Below are positions 2,201 to 23,805 of a stretch of 64,000 nucleotides of DNA, in pieces. The DNA lies in the IMG/VR virus record IMGVR_UViG_3300044451_000175, positions 124,001 to 188,000 of that record; one strand, written 5' to 3'. The notes beneath the pieces were generated by a model. That model was not told the origin of the DNA, did no database searches, and worked only from the letters and a program-made list of their open reading frames with translations. Position 1 is the stretch's first letter, and each line of letters begins with the position of its first letter. A program made the translations under genes and the position numbers. The DNA comes from a virus.

Positions 2201-3391
2201 ATGGGAGCCGCAATCGTTGAAGGCGGTGTTGACACCCGTCAAGTAGGATGGGACAGCATCCGGGTGCTGTCCTCGACCGACAAGAACGTAAAGAAGTACG
2301 TCTTCGAGAAGGGGGATGCCGTCGCCGAGTCGGTACTGTACAAGTACCCCGACTACGAAACCCGCACCGTCATCTGCTGCTCAACTCAGAGCGGCTGTCC
2401 GGTCGGCTGTCGGTTCTGCGGCGCGGGCGACAACTTCGTGCGGTCGCTGACCAGCGAAGAGATCTTCTCGCAACCGAAGCGGTTGCTGGATGACACGGGT
2501 GTCGATCCGACGAAGATGGGCCGACTCCAGATCATGTTCATGAGCATGGGCGAGCCGTTGCTCAACCAGAACAACTTGATCCCGGCCCTGTACCGTCTGC
2601 ACGAGAAGTACCCGAACGCCGCCCTGTTGATTTCTACCAGCGGCCCGCGAGTCGGTTACGGTCGAATCCGCGACGTGTCGGTGGCGATCCCGACCATCGG
2701 CCTCCAGTTCTCGATTCACGAAAGCACGGACGAGGCGCGAAACAAGCTGATCCCGTTCGAGAAGAAGCTGACGCTGACAGAGATCGCGGCCGAGGGCAAG
2801 CTGTGGTACGAAGCAACGGGCCGCACACCGTTCTTCAACTACTGCGTCCACGACAAGAACAACACGCCAGAAGACGTGGAACGGCTCACCGCCCTGTTCG
2901 ATCCCGACATCTGGCAGGCGACGATCTCCGTGATCTGCGAGCGTGACGAATACGTCGCGGCGGCGAACGCCCGTCAGAAGGCTCTGGCAGACGATTTCCG
3001 GGGTGGTCTGATGAGCAAGGGGTTCCGCACTCGCGTGTTTGAAGATGCCGAACGACGCGCCGGATTCGAGGCCGAGCATCTCCCGCTTCACGAAGTCGAG
3101 AGCGTTGCGTACCGCGTCGTGGCAAGCGTCCTGACGGGTGTGGGGGTCCATGTTCAGGACGTTCCAGACCTCGCTGATCTGGCCGATCCCGATGCGACTG
3201 TAGAAATCCAGAGCCGCCACAAGGATCGCACCCTGTTCGGCCGTGACTTCCAGCGTGAATTTCTTCTCTTCCGGCATGATCGGCCTCACACTTTGGTGCC
3301 GCGAGATTTGAGGAACTTGACGGCCTCGCCGTCCCACTTCTCCAAGTTCATCGCCCGCAGCCTCTCCACGTCAATGAAGGCGTTGGTGTAA
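2201..3391 (+). CDS. RlmN-like radical SAM protein, 3' end disrupted by inversion
   Basis: Residues 1 to about 280 are a radical SAM protein of the RlmN/Cfr type: the CX3CX2C cluster GCPVGCRFC binds the 4Fe-4S cluster, GEPLLN is the SAM-binding GEP motif, and ATISVICERDE plus GFRTRVF match the end of RlmN. RlmN methylates adenine C2 in 23S rRNA and tRNA. The usual C-terminal GCGQL segment is absent. After about 3040 the open frame to 3391 is antisense to two displaced gene fragments, so the last ~117 residues are probably not native. The enzyme is likely inactive or altered unless the inversion is an assembly error. Confidence 0.75.
   Translation: MGAAIVEGGVDTRQVGWDSIRVLSSTDKNVKKYVFEKGDAVAESVLYKYPDYETRTVICCSTQSGCPVGCRFCGAGDNFVRSLTSEEIFSQPKRLLDDTGVDPTKMGRLQIMFMSMGEPLLNQNNLIPALYRLHEKYPNAALLISTSGPRVGYGRIRDVSVAIPTIGLQFSIHESTDEARNKLIPFEKKLTLTEIAAEGKLWYEATGRTPFFNYCVHDKNNTPEDVERLTALFDPDIWQATISVICERDEYVAAANARQKALADDFRGGLMSKGFRTRVFEDAERRAGFEAEHLPLHEVESVAYRVVASVLTGVGVHVQDVPDLADLADPDATVEIQSRHKDRTLFGRDFQREFLLFRHDRPHTLVPRDLRNLTASPSHFSKFIARSLSTSMKALV
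3041..3277 (-). pseudogene. displaced N-terminal half of a phage hypothetical protein (inverted)
   Basis: The minus strand begins MPEEKKFTLEV at 3277 with GAGG upstream and reads ALDFYSRIGIGQISEVW...SGASFGIFK. This looks like the N-terminus of a small phage protein whose C-terminal half (VPERYKTAWDLQQVIRH) is at 3467 on the plus strand. Joining 3041 (minus) to 3467 (plus) gives GIFKVPERYKTAW in frame. Past 3041 the minus frame is only the shadow of the radical SAM gene. Confidence 0.6.
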
Positions 3392-3466
3392 GCGTGCGGG
3401 TGCTTGACGAACGTTTCTGCTACGGCCCGCGAAACCTCGCGGGCGTACAACTCGCCGTTCAACAGC
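3286..3466 (-). pseudogene. C-terminal fragment of an upstream gene (inverted)
   Basis: The minus strand reads LNGELYAREVSRAVAETF...VKFLKSRGTKV, stop at 3286, nine bases before the ATG of the fragment at 3277. That spacing is typical of adjacent genes here, but on the opposite strand from all neighbours. It is either the tail of a lost gene or a short gene with a TTG start. Unrecognised. Confidence 0.5.
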
Positions 3467-3769
3467 AAGGTGCCTGAGCGGTACAAGACCGCGTGGGATC
3501 TCCAGCAGGTGATTCGGCACGTTCTGGCGTGGGACGCGAACCCGGAAGGCGGGTTCGGTGTCAATTTCCACGAGCCGCTGAAATCGGGCAAGCACGGCCT
3601 TGCTACAATGAAAGTATCCGAACAGTGGCTGCGGGAGATGGCCGAGAAGGAAGACAACGGCATCATCTCTGTCGGCGGTCTGGTAACAAGAATGAGGCAA
3701 GCCAATGATCCCGCCGTCAATCCTGATGCTGGACATGCTGAAACCGAACGGAAAACCACCGAAGAATGA
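3467..3769 (+). pseudogene. C-terminal half of the inversion-split hypothetical protein
   Basis: Plus-strand reading KVPERYKTAWDLQQVIRH continues as LAWDANPEGGFGVNFHEPL. It completes the fragment at 3041-3277. A local ATG at 3404 would make a chimera. The tail from MKVSEQWLREMAEKE (ATG near 3609) could be a separate short protein in the same frame. The last 65 bases overlap the next gene. Confidence 0.55.
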
Positions 3770-3860
3770 ACCGTGGTGGCAGACCGCGATCACGGTCGTA
3801 CTCCTGACGGCCGTGCTGATCGGCACGCTCGTCGGCGCGATCTACTTGATGAAGCATTGA
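3705..3860 (+). CDS. small single-pass membrane protein
   Basis: 51 residues from ATG 3705. A proline- and lysine-rich N-terminus (LKPNGKPPKNEPWW) precedes one transmembrane helix (AITVVLLTAVLIGTLVGAIY) and a short basic end. The Trp pair probably marks the membrane boundary. AGG lies upstream of the start. Role unknown. Confidence 0.65.
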   Translation: MIPPSILMLDMLKPNGKPPKNEPWWQTAITVVLLTAVLIGTLVGAIYLMKH

Positions 3861-3861
3861 G

Positions 3862-4308
3862 GTGAACGTGAGCATACGGTCCTACGATCTGAGCGGCGAT
3901 CAAGCCGCCGAACTGATTCTTGCCCTCAACGGTGACGCAGAGAAACGCGAGAAATGGTTGAGGCAGTTACGCAAGTGGGTCGCCTACCGTGATCTCAAGC
4001 TGAAGATCCTCGGTTTGACGGAGAATTGGCTCAAAGCCTTCGGTTTGAAGAAGGGCGTTCACGTCGGTCGGGAAGATTGGCAGAGCGACGAAGAAAACCT
4101 TCTGGACTGGGTGTACTACCAGATGGAGTACATGAGTGGCTTGACATGGGACGAAGCGACGAAAAGTGTGATCATCAACAAGTACGCTTCGAGCCGCCCG
4201 CTGCTGCGGGACGAAGAGACAAAAGAACTCTTGGAATTTTTGACGTTGGAAATTGGCAAGGATACTGTATATAATGAACTGACGGCCCATCCGCCGGCGC
4301 GGTGTTAG
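3862..4308 (+). CDS. hypothetical protein
   Basis: 148 residues, mostly helical and charged, with two Trp-rich helices (KREKWLRQLRKWVAYRDLK and LLDWVYYQMEYMSGLTW). The start is GTG 3862 or GTG 3868. The 3' end overlaps the tRNA promoter and the first bases of tRNA-Arg, so the last residues (TAHPPARC) are encoded by tRNA sequence. Not recognised. Confidence 0.6.
   Translation: MNVSIRSYDLSGDQAAELILALNGDAEKREKWLRQLRKWVAYRDLKLKILGLTENWLKAFGLKKGVHVGREDWQSDEENLLDWVYYQMEYMSGLTWDEATKSVIINKYASSRPLLRDEETKELLEFLTLEIGKDTVYNELTAHPPARC
4246..4275 (+). promoter_or_regulatory. sigma70-type promoter of the tRNA cluster
   Basis: TTGGAA, an 18-base spacer, then TATAAT. It lies inside the 3' end of the preceding gene, and the predicted start is a few bases before tRNA-Arg. 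Confidence 0.7.
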
Positions 4309-4352
4309 AGCTTCTACCTCTGACTGGACGGGTTCAACTCCTGTATGGGCTT
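4284..4352 (+). tRNA. tRNA-Arg (TCT), shortened D arm
   Basis: The acceptor GGCCCAT pairs with ATGGGCT (first pair G-U). The anticodon stem TAGAG/CTCTG encloses CTTCTAC, giving anticodon TCT for AGA. The T arm has loop TTCAACT. The D arm is only about 12-13 nt and the whole gene is 69 nt, without encoded CCA. tRNA-Arg(TCT) is common in phages of GC-rich hosts, where AGA is rare. Confidence 0.7.
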
Positions 4353-4359
4353 CTTGACT

Positions 4360-4430
4360 GCCGCTATCGTATAGTGGGATTACCCTTGTCTTGTAAACAA
4401 GTGACCTCAGTTCGATTCTGAGTAGCGGCT
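4360..4430 (+). tRNA. tRNA-Thr (TGT)
   Basis: Acceptor GCCGCTA/TAGCGGC, anticodon stem CTTGT/ACAAG with loop CTTGTAA (anticodon TGT), T arm CTCAG-TTCGATT-CTGAG, discriminator T. CCA is not encoded. It lies eight bases after tRNA-Arg in the same transcript. Confidence 0.9.
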
Positions 4431-4441
4431 CTGATTGATTT

Positions 4442-4512
4442 GCCAGCATCGTATAGTGGTATTATGCTTGTTTCGTAAACAAGTGACCTGAGTTCGATTC
4501 TCAGTGCTGGCT
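4442..4512 (+). tRNA. tRNA-Thr (CGT)
   Basis: Acceptor GCCAGCA/TGCTGGC, anticodon stem CTTGT/ACAAG with loop TTCGTAA (anticodon CGT), T arm TGAG-TTCGATT-CTCA. It resembles the preceding tRNA-Thr closely in the D and anticodon arms, so the pair probably arose by tandem duplication with an anticodon change. Confidence 0.9.
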
Positions 4513-4545
4513 CTGTACCCCTCCCGTGGATAGAATCGCGGGACC

Positions 4546-4580
4546 ATCACCTCGGTCTAAACCACCGAGGTGATTCTTTT
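4546..4580 (+). terminator. terminator of the tRNA operon
   Basis: ATCACCTCGG and its complement flank a short loop, followed by TCTTTT. Confidence 0.8.
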
Positions 4581-4593
4581 GGTAGAATTCATC

Positions 4594-4803
4594 ATGGCGC
4601 GACAGCACTTCAAAGATCCGAGCATCAGTCAACGAAACGACGCGAGTTGCATCAACAACAAGCGTGGCATGGCTCGTCGCGCCAAACGCAAGTCAGGCAA
4701 AACCGACCGCCAACTACTGAAGAAGGCTCTCGATGAAATTCAAGATCAAGAAGTCCAATCCGGTTCCGGGTGTGATTCACCTGCTGTTCAAGAACCAGTA
4801 TGA
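4594..4803 (+). CDS. small basic hypothetical protein
   Basis: 69 residues from ATG 4594, with a basic middle (RRAKRKSGKTDRQLLKKA) that suggests nucleic-acid contact. The last 71 bases overlap the next gene in another frame, so the C-terminal GSGCDSPAVQEPV is constrained by that gene. Function unknown. Confidence 0.55.
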   Translation: MARQHFKDPSISQRNDASCINNKRGMARRAKRKSGKTDRQLLKKALDEIQDQEVQSGSGCDSPAVQEPV

Positions 4804-5386
4804 GACGTGTTCCACGTTCATGCGGCTCCAAGAGTTCTATGAGTCGCCGTTCAAGCAGATTCGCGGCAAGCTGTTCTCGCTCGAACAGTTGATGGACCTG
4901 TACGCCAAGCAGCAGGGCAACTTCACTTACACCTGCGACTGGGGCGGCTTCAACGTGCCGGGCCACGTCGTTGACGAGTTCTTCCGTCTTTACGACGGGC
5001 AGTTGCTCGAAAAAGAGAAGGACTTGAGGGAACTGGTTAAGGACAAGGCCGGCAAGATTGCGGTCGGCTCTAAGTATTACGTCATCGGGATGTACGGCGA
5101 AGAATGTCTGGATCACGAACTGGCCCATGCGTTATACTACCTCAATGACGACTACCGCCGTCAAGTTAACGGCCTAGTCAAAGCGTTGCCGGAATCGGTA
5201 AAGTCTGCCATCGCGAAGTGGCTCTTGGACAAAGGGTACTCGAAGCCGCTGATCGTGGACGAAACCAACGCCTACTTGACGACCGACGATCAGGAAGAGT
5301 TGACGAAGCGTTTCGGCAAAGCGGTCGGCAAGCGGTACGCGAAGTACGAGCCTTTCAGGAGAGCGTTCGATGACGCAAAGTTCTGA
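4733..5386 (+). CDS. hypothetical protein with HE-x-x-H-like motif
   Basis: 217 residues. The central segment EECLDHELAHALYYL carries His-Glu-(x)3-His spacing reminiscent of metal-binding sites, preceded by a YVIGMYG strand. The first half contains TYTCDWGGFNVPG and the last is helical with a basic end. Zinc-dependent hydrolase activity is possible but unproven. It overlaps the start of the next gene by 17 bases. Confidence 0.65.
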   Translation: MKFKIKKSNPVPGVIHLLFKNQYETCSTFMRLQEFYESPFKQIRGKLFSLEQLMDLYAKQQGNFTYTCDWGGFNVPGHVVDEFFRLYDGQLLEKEKDLRELVKDKAGKIAVGSKYYVIGMYGEECLDHELAHALYYLNDDYRRQVNGLVKALPESVKSAIAKWLLDKGYSKPLIVDETNAYLTTDDQEELTKRFGKAVGKRYAKYEPFRRAFDDAKF

Positions 5387-14334: not shown

Positions 14335-14991
14335 GTGGACAACAACGCTATCGGCATCCCTCTGGCGTTTTTCGCCATGATGGTCGTGCTGTGCTGGTGG
14401 GTCGTCGCCGCCAAAGGCTATTGGCTGATGAAGGTCTTGCTGGTCGCGTCCGCGCTGCTGGTGAGTCTGCTTCTGTGGAAGTCGGTCAGCAGTTTGGGCG
14501 GATGGGCGACCAACGAGAAACTCCCTGAGAAGTTCTTGGTTCACTGGGTCGTGATCCAAGAACCAGATCCGGGCGGCAAACACCCCGGTTACATCATGAT
14601 CTGGGCCACCGAGCTTTCCGACGACACGACCGTCAAGAAAGACGAGAGCAGGTTCAAGATCACCGCCGATCACCCCGGCGAACCTCGCGTCTACAAACTG
14701 CCCTACAGCCGGCCACTACACGACCAGATGAACAAGGTTCAGGGTCGTCTCAAACAGGGCAAGCCGGTCGTCGGGAAACGCAGAGGCGTGGAAGACGGAG
14801 AAGATGGTGACGGCGACGGGGATGAAGATGGGGACGGTGACGGGGATGGCAAGGGCGGTAAGGGCAAGGGTAAAGGAAAAGGCAAGGGCAAGGGCGGTAC
14901 TGGTTCGGGCGGCGGGTTCTCGAAGCCCACCGAGTTCATGTTCTATGATCAGCCGCCGCCGAAGATGCCTGAGAAGATTCCGGGCAAGTGA
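14335..14991 (+). CDS. membrane protein with acidic and Gly/Lys repeats
   Basis: 218 residues from GTG 14335. Two N-terminal membrane helices and a soluble domain (FLVHWVVIQEPDPGGKHPG) are followed by low-complexity DGDGDE and then GKGKGK repeats, and a proline-rich end. It is the third gene of the channel operon and is followed by a terminator. Charge-segregated repeats could contact peptidoglycan or polyanions; this is speculative. Confidence 0.75.
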   Translation: MDNNAIGIPLAFFAMMVVLCWWVVAAKGYWLMKVLLVASALLVSLLLWKSVSSLGGWATNEKLPEKFLVHWVVIQEPDPGGKHPGYIMIWATELSDDTTVKKDESRFKITADHPGEPRVYKLPYSRPLHDQMNKVQGRLKQGKPVVGKRRGVEDGEDGDGDGDEDGDGDGDGKGGKGKGKGKGKGKGGTGSGGGFSKPTEFMFYDQPPPKMPEKIPGK

Positions 14992-14994
14992 AAC

Positions 14995-15025
14995 AAAAAC
15001 GCCGACCACATGGTCGGCGTTTTTG
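14995..15025 (+). terminator. terminator of the membrane operon
   Basis: A 14-bp hairpin with a CA loop whose 3' arm ends in five T. The A-rich 5' arm makes it potentially bidirectional. Confidence 0.88.
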
Positions 15026-15040
15026 TTGCCTATATACGGT

Positions 15041-15766
15041 ATGAACTTTAGAGTATGGCTTGAGTCGCAATTGCCGTCGCCTTTGGACTCCTTCAGGAGC
15101 AAGGACGAGTTTATTGCGTTTTTGAAGAAGTCTTCGGCGGCGGATCGTCAGGGCATTCTGGATTGGGCCGAGAAGATCAATGCCGCCAACTACGCGAAGA
15201 AGGTGGGGACCAACAATCCCGCAGTCCTCTACCACGGCTCGCCTCAAGATAAGATCGCCAAAGACGGGTTCCAGATCACGATGGGCCAAAGAAGTTCCGG
15301 GTTCATGGGCGCGACGTACTCGGTCCAGAACCAGGGCATCTTCATGACGGACTCGAAGGAGATGGCGAACTACTTCGGGAGCAATCGGAGCGACGGCGGC
15401 AGGAACTTCCGCGTCTACACGGCCTATGCCAACCTAGATCACCTGTTTGATGTGACGCTCGGCATGCCGCTTCAGTACCGCAAACTCGGCCTCAAGCTCA
15501 TCAACGACTACTACGGCAAGAAGAAGACGAAGTTGGCCGAGTCGGACATCTGGTGGTTATTGGACCGGCCGGATTTTGTGAACCTGATCAAGCAGGGCGG
15601 TTACAACGCCGTCAAGTTCAAAGAAGACTACTCGATCAGGAAACAGAGCAGCAAGGCGGCGTTCAGCTATCTTGTTTTCGACACAGCACATCTGGTGGTC
15701 AAGAGTCCCCAAAACGATTTGCTCAACAGCGTGGACTCCATTTGGGAGTACATCTCCGGTCATTAG
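15041..15766 (+). CDS. ADP-ribosyltransferase-like protein, possible injected effector
   Basis: 241 residues. LYHGSPQDKIAKDGF, GIFMTDSKEMANYFG and VYTAYANLDHLFDV follow the strand order of small ADP-ribosyltransferase folds that use NAD+, with the His of YHGS as a probable NAD-binding residue. The N-terminus MNFRVWLESQL resembles the capsid-targeting sequence of T4 internal proteins such as Alt, an ADP-ribosyltransferase packaged and injected to modify host RNA polymerase. A promoter-like TATATA lies just before the ATG. The exact ART subfamily is not settled. Confidence 0.7.
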   Translation: MNFRVWLESQLPSPLDSFRSKDEFIAFLKKSSAADRQGILDWAEKINAANYAKKVGTNNPAVLYHGSPQDKIAKDGFQITMGQRSSGFMGATYSVQNQGIFMTDSKEMANYFGSNRSDGGRNFRVYTAYANLDHLFDVTLGMPLQYRKLGLKLINDYYGKKKTKLAESDIWWLLDRPDFVNLIKQGGYNAVKFKEDYSIRKQSSKAAFSYLVFDTAHLVVKSPQNDLLNSVDSIWEYISGH

Positions 15767-19708: not shown

Positions 19709-19791
19709 TTTGCCTCTTTGCAGAACAACACAAGCTCGCTAGTATATAGTCCGAAGGGTCACATTCTGCCCTGTTTCAACCGGAGGCAATC

Positions 19792-20570
19792 ATGTCGAAG
19801 AAAAACCAATCAGCGAGGTGGCTTTGACCCTGTAAAGGGTCAGGAAACCCATTCCCAGGCTGCCTCCTGGCTTTGACCACGCCAACGAAATCATCCTCGA
19901 AGTCCTTTATGGCGAGGGTGGTACTGACTCGAAACTCTTCGTCACCGATCTCGGCGATCTCTACGTCAAATATGCCGCCCGCAAGGGTCTGGCGTGTGAG
20001 CTTTTGACCGAAGACGACGGACACGTCACCTTCAAGATCAAAGGCAAGAAAGCCGCGTGGCACTTCCGTCACGAGGCAGGCAAGCACTGCGTTCAGCGGG
20101 TTCCCCCGACCGAGCGTAACGGCCGGCGTCAAACGAGCTTCGTGAACGTCGCTATCCTGCCGATCCTTCCTGAGTACACGAAAGTGACACTCAGGGACAA
20201 CGACCTCGAAGAGAAGTTCCAGACTGGGCGTCAAAAGGCCGGGGGCCAAAACGCGAACAAAGTCGCTTCCGCCGTGCGACTGAAGCACAAGCCGACCGGC
20301 CTCTGCGTGTTCATCAACGGCCGCGATCAGGGGCAGAACCGCGAGGAAGCTCGCCGCATCCTGACGGCCAAAGTGAACCAGCAGAAGATCGAGAAGGAAC
20401 GCGCGGCCGAGGTCGGGATGAGGGAAGACTTCCTGAAGAATCGCGGACGCGGGGACAAGATCAGGACGTACAACTTCATCATCAACGAGGTGACGGACCA
20501 CCGACTGGATCGTTCTTCCAAGAACATCAAGGCGGTGATGAAGGGCGATCTGGACGAAGTCATCGGATAA
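19792..20570 (+). CDS. class I peptide chain release factor requiring translational recoding
   Basis: ATG 19792 has GGAGG five bases upstream. The reading frame changes twice, each time at CTTTGAC (TGA at 19825 and at 19874), before the main frame runs to 20570. The main frame has release-factor domains 2-4: EIILEVLYGEGGTDSKLFV, HRVQRVP-like CVQRVPPTE, the catalytic GGQ at 20241-20249 within KAGGQNANK, and KIRTYNFI...VTDHRLD. Domain 1 is missing. No suitable in-frame start lies between the second site and 20004. Bacterial prfB uses one CTTTGAC +1 shift for autoregulation; this gene has two, 49 nt apart, with hairpins between. Confidence 0.85.
19814..19878 (+). promoter_or_regulatory. recoding element: duplicated CTTTGAC site with hairpins
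   Basis: The direct repeat TGGCTTTGACC occurs at 19819-19829 and 19868-19878. GAGG stands three bases before the first CTT, as in prfB. A 7-bp hairpin starts at the first TGA (TGACCCT, loop GTAA, AGGGTCA), and a second (CCAGG, loop CTGCCT, CCTGG) ends just before the second CTT. A double +1 shift, or one 50-nt hop from CTT to TTT, restores the frame. Confidence 0.75.
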
Positions 20571-21002: not shown

Positions 21003-21713
21003 ATGCCTACCAAAACCGAATACCAGAAACGCAAACAAAACAATCTCTGTTTACGTTGTGGTAAAACGCCATTGGATTCCAAAAACGTTTGTCAAAAGTG
21101 CATAGACAAGGCGATGGCGAAGTATGCCGCAAAAAAACAAGCAAAAGTTTGTGTAAATTGTAGTCGGCCCGCTCCAAATGGAGCCAGATGTGTCGAGTGC
21201 GCAAAGGTCCACAAAAAAGTTGCAGATCGAAGACGGATTACAAAAAGAAAAACATCAATTTGTTTGATTTGCCCGACTCAAACAAATGGCTCTGCCTATT
21301 GTGATTCTTGTTTGGCGAAGAATAGGGCCAAGTGTCGCCGGAAGCGAGAATCGGGATTGTGTCGCAATTGTTCCAAAAAGGCTATTCCGGGGAAAGCAAG
21401 ATGTGAAGAATGCACGCAGACAAATCGCGAGAGCATTCTCAGACTCAGGGATAAAGTGTTCGCTGCGTATGGAGGGGCAAGATGTAATTGTTGTGGAGAA
21501 ACGACAGTAGAGTTTTTGGCATTAGATCACATAAACAACGATGGTGCCGAACACAGACGAAGTTTGCGTGAGAACAGCGTCTATCGTTGGGTTAGTAAAA
21601 ACGGGTTCCCTGCCGGTTTTCAGGTACTGTGCCACAATTGCAATTGGGGCAAACATATTTGTGGTGGAGTCTGCCCACATCAGAGGAAAATTCATGTCGA
21701 ACATCATCAATGA
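21003..21713 (+). CDS. HNH homing endonuclease with zinc-ribbon repeats
   Basis: 236 residues from ATG 21003 (a GTG stands one codon earlier). Five or more short CxxC modules (CLRCGK, CQKC, CVNC, CVEC, CRNC) lead into a C-terminal HNH core (CNCCGE, LALDHINNDGAEHRRS, CHNCNWGKH). AT-rich codon use contrasts with the flanks. It overlaps the start of the nucleotidyltransferase gene by 20 bases and its 3' end carries that gene's GAGGA site. Confidence 0.85.
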   Translation: MPTKTEYQKRKQNNLCLRCGKTPLDSKNVCQKCIDKAMAKYAAKKQAKVCVNCSRPAPNGARCVECAKVHKKVADRRRITKRKTSICLICPTQTNGSAYCDSCLAKNRAKCRRKRESGLCRNCSKKAIPGKARCEECTQTNRESILRLRDKVFAAYGGARCNCCGETTVEFLALDHINNDGAEHRRSLRENSVYRWVSKNGFPAGFQVLCHNCNWGKHICGGVCPHQRKIHVEHHQ

Positions 21714-23805
21714 TCTGGTCCAGAAGAAACTTGCTCACCCACCTGCGTGGCTTAGTTCCAATACCCATTATCTAACGATGATGGGTTCGGTGGCCTACGG
21801 GGTGAGCAGCGACACGTCCGACATGGACCTGTACGGCTTTTGTCTGCCGCCGAAGGAAATCGTCTTCCCGCACTTGTCGGGGGAGATTTTCGGTTTCGGC
21901 ACGCAGAAGAAGCGGTTCAACCAGTGGCAGCAGCACCACATCAAAGACCCGTGTGCGATGCAAGGGAAGGGACGGCAGTATGACCTCACGGTCTACAACG
22001 TGGTGGATTACTTCAATCTGTTGATGCAGAACAACCCCAACATGATTGACAGTATTTTCACGCCCGACAACTGCGTGTTGCACATCACGCGGATCGGCAC
22101 GATGGTTCGCGAGAAGCGACGGATGTTCCTCCACAAGAAGTGTTGGCACACCTTCAAGGGGTACGCCTACGCTCAGATGAAGAAGATCCGCAACAAGGAG
22201 CGTGAGTCTTCGTCGCGGCGCGACCTGATCGAGAAGTACGGGTACGACTGCTATCTTGATTCCGAAACTGAATTTCTTACTGAAGCCGGCTGGAAGAAGT
22301 ACGACGATGTGGAGGCCGACGATTCTCTGGCAGTGGTAGATCCGTCAACGGGGAAGATCGGATGGGAAAATTACACCGAACGCATCGACAAGCCTTTCTC
22401 CGGTCCCATGTACGTCGTAGAACCGGCGATGAGCAGGTGTGTGGTTACGCCCAATCACCACATGCTCGTTTCACCCGCACGTCGCTCGGAGGCGACTAAC
22501 TTTTCATACCGTTATTTCGAGGATAAAGCGGACTGGAATTTGGTTCCTTTCTCAACCCTTATGACTGGATCGAGGTCGTGGTTTCACACACGTCGCCGTG
22601 TGGAAGGCAACTGCTTCGACTATTCCGGTGTCACCGACGAGTATTTGGTTTTGGCCGGTCTGTATATTGCCGAAGGCACCATCAACTTCAGGGATGGCAA
22701 GGTCAAGACCGCAAGACTGACCCAGACGCCGAATGGGAAGCAAGAGTTTTTCGAGATGGCTGATCGTATTGCTAGTGCCTTCGACATGAAGCGATACGAC
22801 TACGACAAGGAAACAGTCTGGACCGTTGAGCGTGCTACCGCCGAAAAACTCTATACGGATTTCGGACATGGTTCTGGTAGCAAGAGGCTCCCTCTGTGGT
22901 GTTACAAGTTGTCCGAACGACAGGCTTCCATTCTTTGGAAGAATGCCTGTCTCGGAGACGGAACTCCTACGCCAAACGGCGAAGTCTACTACACCAGTAA
23001 CGCTGCACTTGCTGGCGATGTGCAGGCTATGTTAACATGCGCCGGCGTACTGTGTTCTGTACGCGGGCCTTACAGTTACGAGCGAAACGATGAATGCTTC
23101 GGTAACTGTGACATGTATCAGGTGTATCGGCCTTCGGACCAGTACGCCTACTCCTGCGTAGATTTCAAGAACAGGATTCAGAAATCCGATGATGAGGCGA
23201 CTGAGGTGACGGGCGATGTTCGTGTTGATGGCCTCCGTCATTTCACAGAAGATGACGACCCCAAAACAAGCTGGCCCATCAAGGAACGTATTGTTCAAGA
23301 AGAACGCATCGTGTGTTTCCAAGTCCCATCGGGAACTTTGATCACTCGAAGTAAGGGCCGAGTCGCCCTGCATGGCAATACGAAGTTCGCATACCACCTT
23401 GTTCGTCTGATGAACGAAGTGGAACAGATCATGGTCGAACACGACCTCGATCTGATGCGGAACCGCGAACAGTTGAAGCAGATCCGCGCCGGGTGCTGGA
23501 CCGAGGAGCAACTTGAGGACTACTTCGCCAAGAAGGAAGTATCCCTCGAAGAGACGTACAACAAGAGCGATCTCCGTTGGGGACCGGACGAGCCGGCCAT
23601 CAAGGAACTGCTCCTGAACGTGCTGGAAGAACACTACGGCAACCTCGACAAGTGCGTCATCCGTCAGGACGCGGTCGTGACTGCCCTCCGCAACGTGATC
23701 GGCGCGGCTGATGAAGCCCGCCGCGTACTGGAGCAGATCACATATGAAGAACCTGCTGAGGCGGGCGGCGAACAGTCTGAACAGGCTGTGGCACCGACTG
23801 AGTGA
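21694..23805 (+). CDS. RlaP-like nucleotidyltransferase interrupted by an intein
   Basis: 703 residues from ATG 21694 (GAGGA upstream); the spliced product would be about 326. The N-extein has the nucleotidyltransferase signature MMGSVAYGVSSDTSDMDLYG, the GSxAYG and SDxD pattern of the pol-beta-type RlaP/PF10127 family found in RNA repair operons. The intein starts at Cys186 and ends with HGN before Thr. The C-extein is helical. The protein may add nucleotides to RNA ends. It sits after an HNH gene and before DUF2934 and vWA genes. Confidence 0.85.
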   Translation: MSNIINDLVQKKLAHPPAWLSSNTHYLTMMGSVAYGVSSDTSDMDLYGFCLPPKEIVFPHLSGEIFGFGTQKKRFNQWQQHHIKDPCAMQGKGRQYDLTVYNVVDYFNLLMQNNPNMIDSIFTPDNCVLHITRIGTMVREKRRMFLHKKCWHTFKGYAYAQMKKIRNKERESSSRRDLIEKYGYDCYLDSETEFLTEAGWKKYDDVEADDSLAVVDPSTGKIGWENYTERIDKPFSGPMYVVEPAMSRCVVTPNHHMLVSPARRSEATNFSYRYFEDKADWNLVPFSTLMTGSRSWFHTRRRVEGNCFDYSGVTDEYLVLAGLYIAEGTINFRDGKVKTARLTQTPNGKQEFFEMADRIASAFDMKRYDYDKETVWTVERATAEKLYTDFGHGSGSKRLPLWCYKLSERQASILWKNACLGDGTPTPNGEVYYTSNAALAGDVQAMLTCAGVLCSVRGPYSYERNDECFGNCDMYQVYRPSDQYAYSCVDFKNRIQKSDDEATEVTGDVRVDGLRHFTEDDDPKTSWPIKERIVQEERIVCFQVPSGTLITRSKGRVALHGNTKFAYHLVRLMNEVEQIMVEHDLDLMRNREQLKQIRAGCWTEEQLEDYFAKKEVSLEETYNKSDLRWGPDEPAIKELLLNVLEEHYGNLDKCVIRQDAVVTALRNVIGAADEARRVLEQITYEEPAEAGGEQSEQAVAPTE
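22249..23379 (+). other. intein with LAGLIDADG endonuclease, 377 residues
   Basis: The N-terminal splice block is CYLDSETEFLTEAGWKKYDD. Block B is VTPNHHMLVS. The two LAGLIDADG-type motifs are LAGLYIAEG and ACLGDGT. The C-terminus is VALHGN followed by extein Thr+1. Cys1, terminal His-Asn and Thr+1 are the residues expected for active splicing. Confidence 0.88.

Follow-up and report, generated by a model that had tools for sequence, protein, structure and literature searches.

A phage RF1-type release factor gene with two candidate +1 frameshift gates in series

The gene described here is predicted to encode an RF1-type release factor without domain 1, which most probably (roughly 0.87, as judged from sequence comparison) is expressed through two successive +1 frameshift gates of the prfB type. 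Release-factor frameshifting, a textbook case of autoregulatory recoding, has so far been seen as a single device, confined to RF2 and to UGA or UAA. The gene lies in a window of 64,000 nucleotides, the whole stretch of DNA analyzed, which spans positions 124001-188000 of a virus record 188,369 bases long (IMGVR_UViG_3300044451_000175).

Anatomy of the locus and class of the product

The sole start codon with a Shine-Dalgarno (SD) sequence is ATG 19792, two frames away from the GGQ-bearing frame, which closes at TAA 20568-20570. On one of the readings offered by an earlier note on this DNA, a ribosome initiating there would need to shift by +1 at 19822 and again at 19871 to read the release factor. 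Every anatomical feature listed in that note (the start, its GGAGG, both CTTTGAC sites, the repeat, GAGG and two hairpins) was found in the sequence (Table 1). At both gates the slippery sequence CTT T comes with an in-frame stop that is followed by C; both lie within an 11-bp direct repeat, TGGCTTTGACC, at 19819-19829 and 19868-19878 with a spacing of 49. The second gate stands 40 nt 5' of the GEGG motif, and a +1 shift at this point enters the release-factor frame, as indicated by Pfam, NCBIfam and fold evidence.

Table 1. Features of the release factor locus in window coordinates
Feature	Position	Strand	Evidence or remark
SD sequence GGAGG of start codon ATG 19792	19782..19786	+	sequence
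Leader ORF, MSKKNQSARWL then TGA, 11 codons	19792..19827	+	sequence; SD-ATG leaders in 8/8 double-gate genes
Internal SD-like GAGG, 3 nt 5' of first CTT	19815..19818	+	sequence; prfB spacing
First gate, CTT TGA C (stop 19825-19827)	19822..19828	+	sequence
7-bp hairpin with GTAA loop, beginning at first TGA	19825..19842	+	perfect stem; not conserved in family
Inter-gate stretch in +1 frame, 16 codons, DPVKGQETHSQAASWL	19826..19873	+	open frame
5-bp hairpin CCAGG-CUGCCU-CCUGG, directly 5' of second CTT	19855..19870	+	possible SD substitute
Second gate, CTT TGA C (stop 19874-19876), without SD-like sequence	19871..19877	+	position of the single gate in most relatives
Release factor body, 231 aa, domains 2-4 without domain 1	19875..20570	+	Pfam, NCBIfam, PDB, predicted fold
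PPT codon-recognition motif (PxT, RF1 type)	20103..20111	+	sequence motif
GGQ catalytic motif	20241..20249	+	sequence motif

Non-standard initiation or re-initiation in the main frame past the second stop, with the upstream ORFs as mere leaders, is a rival reading. Main-frame codons do start right past that stop, and one relative (L022; L numbers denote loci) has an ordinary ATG with an SD sequence just 5' of the body. In the window, however, the GGQ frame (19875-20570) holds no ATG, GTG or TTG from its upstream stop, TAA 19833, to the conserved GEGG motif, leaving no other in-frame start for the translation from downstream of 19875 that the earlier note had named as a refutation, and no SD sequence precedes the beginning of this frame just 3' of the second stop. 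Such initiation also fails to explain why CTT precedes each stop, why C follows it and why a prfB-like SD is present, and we consider it very improbable.

The body matches the second half of the Pfam PCRF domain and the RF-1 domain. Its NCBIfam scores rank RF1 (205.5 bits) above RF2 (160) and PrfH (45.1), all of them under cut-off because domain 1 is missing; the RF1 match starts at model position 103. PDB sequence and fold searches ranked RF1 first (pLDDT of the predicted model, 87), and the RF1 features, an intact GGQ and a PxT motif, are present. By these motifs and matches, the product, 258 aa given both shifts, is a domain-1-less (truncated) RF1-type class I release factor. The gene had earlier been treated as prfB-like; an RF2 identity is contradicted by PPT instead of the SPF motif, the absence of domain 1 and the RF2 score under cut-off. 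A full-length RF1 equivalog was likewise rejected (no domain 1, 205.5 bits against a cut-off of 400), as was PrfH (45.1 against 166.65 bits), whose RtcB partner was not found in the window's virus record, itself a fragment. In the protein tree the short factors form one clade (support 100/99), separate from full-length RF1 and RF2. Most family members carry PxT motifs, and many, the window included, have QTS in place of the HTS of RF1 and RF2. The conserved histidine of the recognition loop stacks on the stop codon.

Elsewhere in the window, 21541-23805 encodes an RlaP-like (PF10127) RNA-repair nucleotidyltransferase that looks intein-interrupted, and 14804-15763 gives a weak ART-PolyVal (ADP-ribosyltransferase) match slightly under cut-off. 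RlaP is also found near the release factor gene in the L005 and L006 records.

TGA appears to be a genuine stop in the window phage, given eight ATGA/TGATG gene overlaps, and recoding of TGA as Trp is unsupported there. In some distant relatives from huge phages, the release factor gene lacks a CTT gate and carries TGA in frame at Trp-like positions (L124, LR756501; L125, LR756504; L127, LR756502; L128, LR745206), and TGA likely encodes Trp in them.

The heptamer CTTTGAC is not rare by itself: it occurs 8 times in the window, where 10.5 occurrences are expected by chance. We scanned every ATG on both strands of 464 kb of the window and related genomes for a short ORF followed by a +1 short ORF. 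Among 4,664 such pairs, CTT preceded both stops in 10 (about 2.5 expected by chance); all 10 fall in eight release factor genes, and none lies elsewhere in the 464 kb on either strand.

Double-gate and single-gate relatives

Scanning viral and genome contigs at the protein level gave relatives in huge-phage contigs and bacterial MAGs. The 39 loci walked comprise eight with two gates, 24 with one N-terminal gate, three with a gate inside domain 2, one with a plain ATG and three with an in-frame stop. All eight double-gate genes share one layout: an ATG with an SD sequence, a CTT-stop, 11-23 open +1 codons, a second CTT-stop and the release factor. The CTT-to-CTT distance is 49 nt in the window, 70 in L002, 46 in L003 and L008, 49 in L010, 37 in L011, 34 in L017 and 52 in L086; every interval (34-70 nt) equals 1 mod 3 and is open in the +1 frame, and most of the encoded peptides are unrelated in sequence. 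The stops are TGA (2), TAA (2) and TAG (4) at the first gate and TGA (5) and TAG (3) at the second, the two differing in L008 and L086 (TAG/TGA) and L003 (TAA/TGA). C follows the stop at 14 of these 16 gates. The comparison with related phage release factors that the earlier note had proposed thus yields seven other divergent genes that keep the double layout. Together with the phased, open intervals and the single-gate relatives that use the second site alone, this argues strongly for the two successive +1 shifts that the note had offered as one reading.

Assembly or sequencing error, which a single metagenomic contig might suggest as the source of the frame changes, is barely conceivable: the same layout occurs in independent metagenomes and in a separately deposited 595-kb genome (L003), and every shift falls on a prfB-type site. 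That L003 and L008, of different collections, are both double-gated argues against it as well.

The exact 11-bp repeat at a spacing of 49 nt in the window, and the near-identical cassettes of L017, would also fit a private duplication or a decaying gene, in which one site is ancestral, the other is recent damage, and little or no factor is made. The body is intact, however, with conserved motifs, and the seven other divergent genes are double-gated, with intervals of unrelated sequence whose frame compensates in every case; this explanation is very improbable for the layout as a whole. The 49-nt insertion that the earlier note considered may still account for the window's own interval, but fails to explain the double layout of the relatives. 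The doubles are scattered on the protein tree, where they require 6 changes, of which well-supported branches force at least 3; this implies that the second gate was repeatedly gained or lost and that any single copy might be decaying.

Programmed bypassing, in which the ribosome would leave at CTT 19822 and resume some 50 nt farther on, like that of T4 gene 60, predicts a product without DPVKGQETHSQAA. The window does resemble gene 60: its CTT codons match, a hairpin begins right at the first stop, and TTT 19872 lies 50 nt away. In contrast to gene 60, the gap would be translated if two shifts occur, and neither length nor hairpin is conserved: the distances vary among relatives, and the first-stop hairpin is strong in the window and L011 only, being absent in most doubles. 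The supposedly skipped stretch is open in the +1 frame every time, yet bypassing requires neither an open interval nor its phase nor a second CTT-stop. A ribosome that landed on the second CTT would once more have a stop codon in its A site, and single-gate relatives go straight into the second gate. The 50-nt hop of the earlier note is accordingly highly improbable, and the window's 50 nt and stop hairpin are most likely coincidental or stimulatory.

Most of the 24 single-gate relatives carry the gate at the second-gate position, 40 nt before GEGG; across all 24 the stop is TGA in 14, TAG in 9 and TAA in 1. The bodies of L006 and L007 are near-identical while their leaders have diverged, and both keep the CTT-stop, one as TAA and the other as TAG. 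The gate lies within domain 2 in L080, L081 and L092. An internal-gate group, mostly CGGAGGGGT-CTT-TRR, also has it inside domain 2 (L126, L143, L145, L155, L160, L161, L162, L167, L170, L171 and L238).

In L015, L064 and L083 a stop stands in frame and the frame is unchanged. An in-frame TGA follows a short leader in L015 (2468-2530, MKNQ*RGN) and in L235 (1956-2020, DRTS*RDG), possibly as a readthrough-type gate, and other genes near L015 end in TGA; comparable stops lie deeper in the gene in L064 (TAG) and L083 (TGA). tRNAs with a CUA anticodon, possible amber suppressors, were seen at L212:19243-19320 (genome of L002) and L219:819-895 (genome of L015). Each phage record tested has one PF00472 gene; that of L066 lies in two pieces, split just past GGQ (2501 to 5312), and the gap between them contains, downstream, a match to a group II intron (Rfam RF00029). 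Short family members whose gate is CTT TAG C and lacks an SD sequence also occur in L087-L091, mostly Obscuribacterales MAGs. The Obscuribacterales gene lies near sigma-factor and MsrAB genes, coexists with additional release factor genes and appears to be chromosomal.

Putative mechanism and stimulatory elements

Slippage at both gates, its efficiency and its regulatory purpose we infer as follows. A ribosome from ATG 19792 would meet UGA while its peptidyl-tRNA-Leu is paired with CUU. Action of a release factor there would free a peptide of 11 residues; with slow termination, tRNA-Leu would slip from CUU to UUU and GAC would be read, by analogy with prfB (PMC12421855, PMC5009743). Sixteen codons later the ribosome would face the identical choice at the second CTT TGA C, and the factor would be made solely by ribosomes that slip twice. 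Scarcity of release activity would in this way be gauged twice, yielding a steeper and less leaky switch than a single gate; as two gates multiply, output might fall approximately with the square of termination efficiency, provided that one and the same factor is sensed by both. The arrangement looks like a two-step safety catch under selection rather than an accident.

Since most members have the PxT motif of RF1, which predicts UAA/UAG recognition, TAG gates would fit autoregulation by the product. For the same reason, the UGA gates of the window may respond to host RF2 and not to the product, or may imply altered specificity. We tentatively consider, as a rather doubtful extension, that two gates in tandem sense termination capacity cooperatively or as a two-input device, and that the phage factors, several of them with Gln for the conserved His of the recognition loop, have altered or broadened stop specificity and thereby autoregulate even at UGA. 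If so, the mixed-stop doubles (L003, L008 and L086) would need host RF1 and RF2 both limiting for expression.

Stimulatory elements differ among gates. At the first window gate an SD-like GAGG lies 3 nt upstream of CTT, and stronger versions (AGGGGG/GGAGG) occur in L002, L010, L011 and L017, with AGGGGG preceding both CTTs in L011 and L017. The SD-like element is absent at four of the eight second gates of doubles, the window included, and at 13 of the 24 single gates. As SD loss lowers frameshifting in Escherichia coli prfB (PMC12421855), the yield at the second window gate could be low. A 5-bp hairpin abuts CTT there (P ~0.03 in shuffles, a post hoc comparison), and an upstream hairpin beside the shift site can stand in for the SD sequence in +1 shifting in a 70S system (PMC6321510); the hairpin possibly does so at this one site. 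Upstream CTT-abutting hairpins as a family rule were not borne out across relatives, nor were hairpins as general stimulators, with strong ones past the first site confined to the window and L011.

Relation to known recoding systems

The window family shares with prfB the CTT slip codon, the A-site stop, the C after the stop, the SD-like element 3 nt upstream (at the first gate) and the location in a release factor gene. It differs in having two gates in series and an RF1-type body without domain 1, as well as in a second gate that lacks the SD-like element in half of the doubles. The phage gates also include TAG, whereas 8,164 bacterial prfB motifs have TGA (98.6%) or else TAA as their stop, without a single TAG, and no programmed frameshift is known for prfA (PMC12421855). 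Like RF1 (PrfA), which provides the nearest solved structures, the phage factor has PCRF and RF-1 domains, PxT and GGQ; unlike RF1, it lacks domain 1, forms a separate clade, scores under the NCBIfam RF1 cut-off and is encoded by a gated gene. Absence of domain 1 is shared with PrfH, but the phage factor scores only 45 bits to that model against 205 to RF1, and the window's record has no RtcB. Genes with more than one shift per product are known from some retroviruses, Euplotes and mitochondria (PMC5009743); these employ other shift sites and machinery and have no release-factor gates. Huge phages carry RF1 and RF2, in a paper silent on frameshifting (PMC7162821). Tandem gates, gated RF1-like genes and gated phage release factor genes were unreported in our literature searches, whose coverage largely excluded subscription journals.

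In summary, standard gene calling can miss or truncate such gated genes. The phage RF1-type family appears to use the gate widely, with UAG, UGA and UAA, at varied gene positions and twice in series in eight genes. This makes it testable why two inefficient steps are stacked, perhaps for a sharper response, and to which release factor each of the gates responds.
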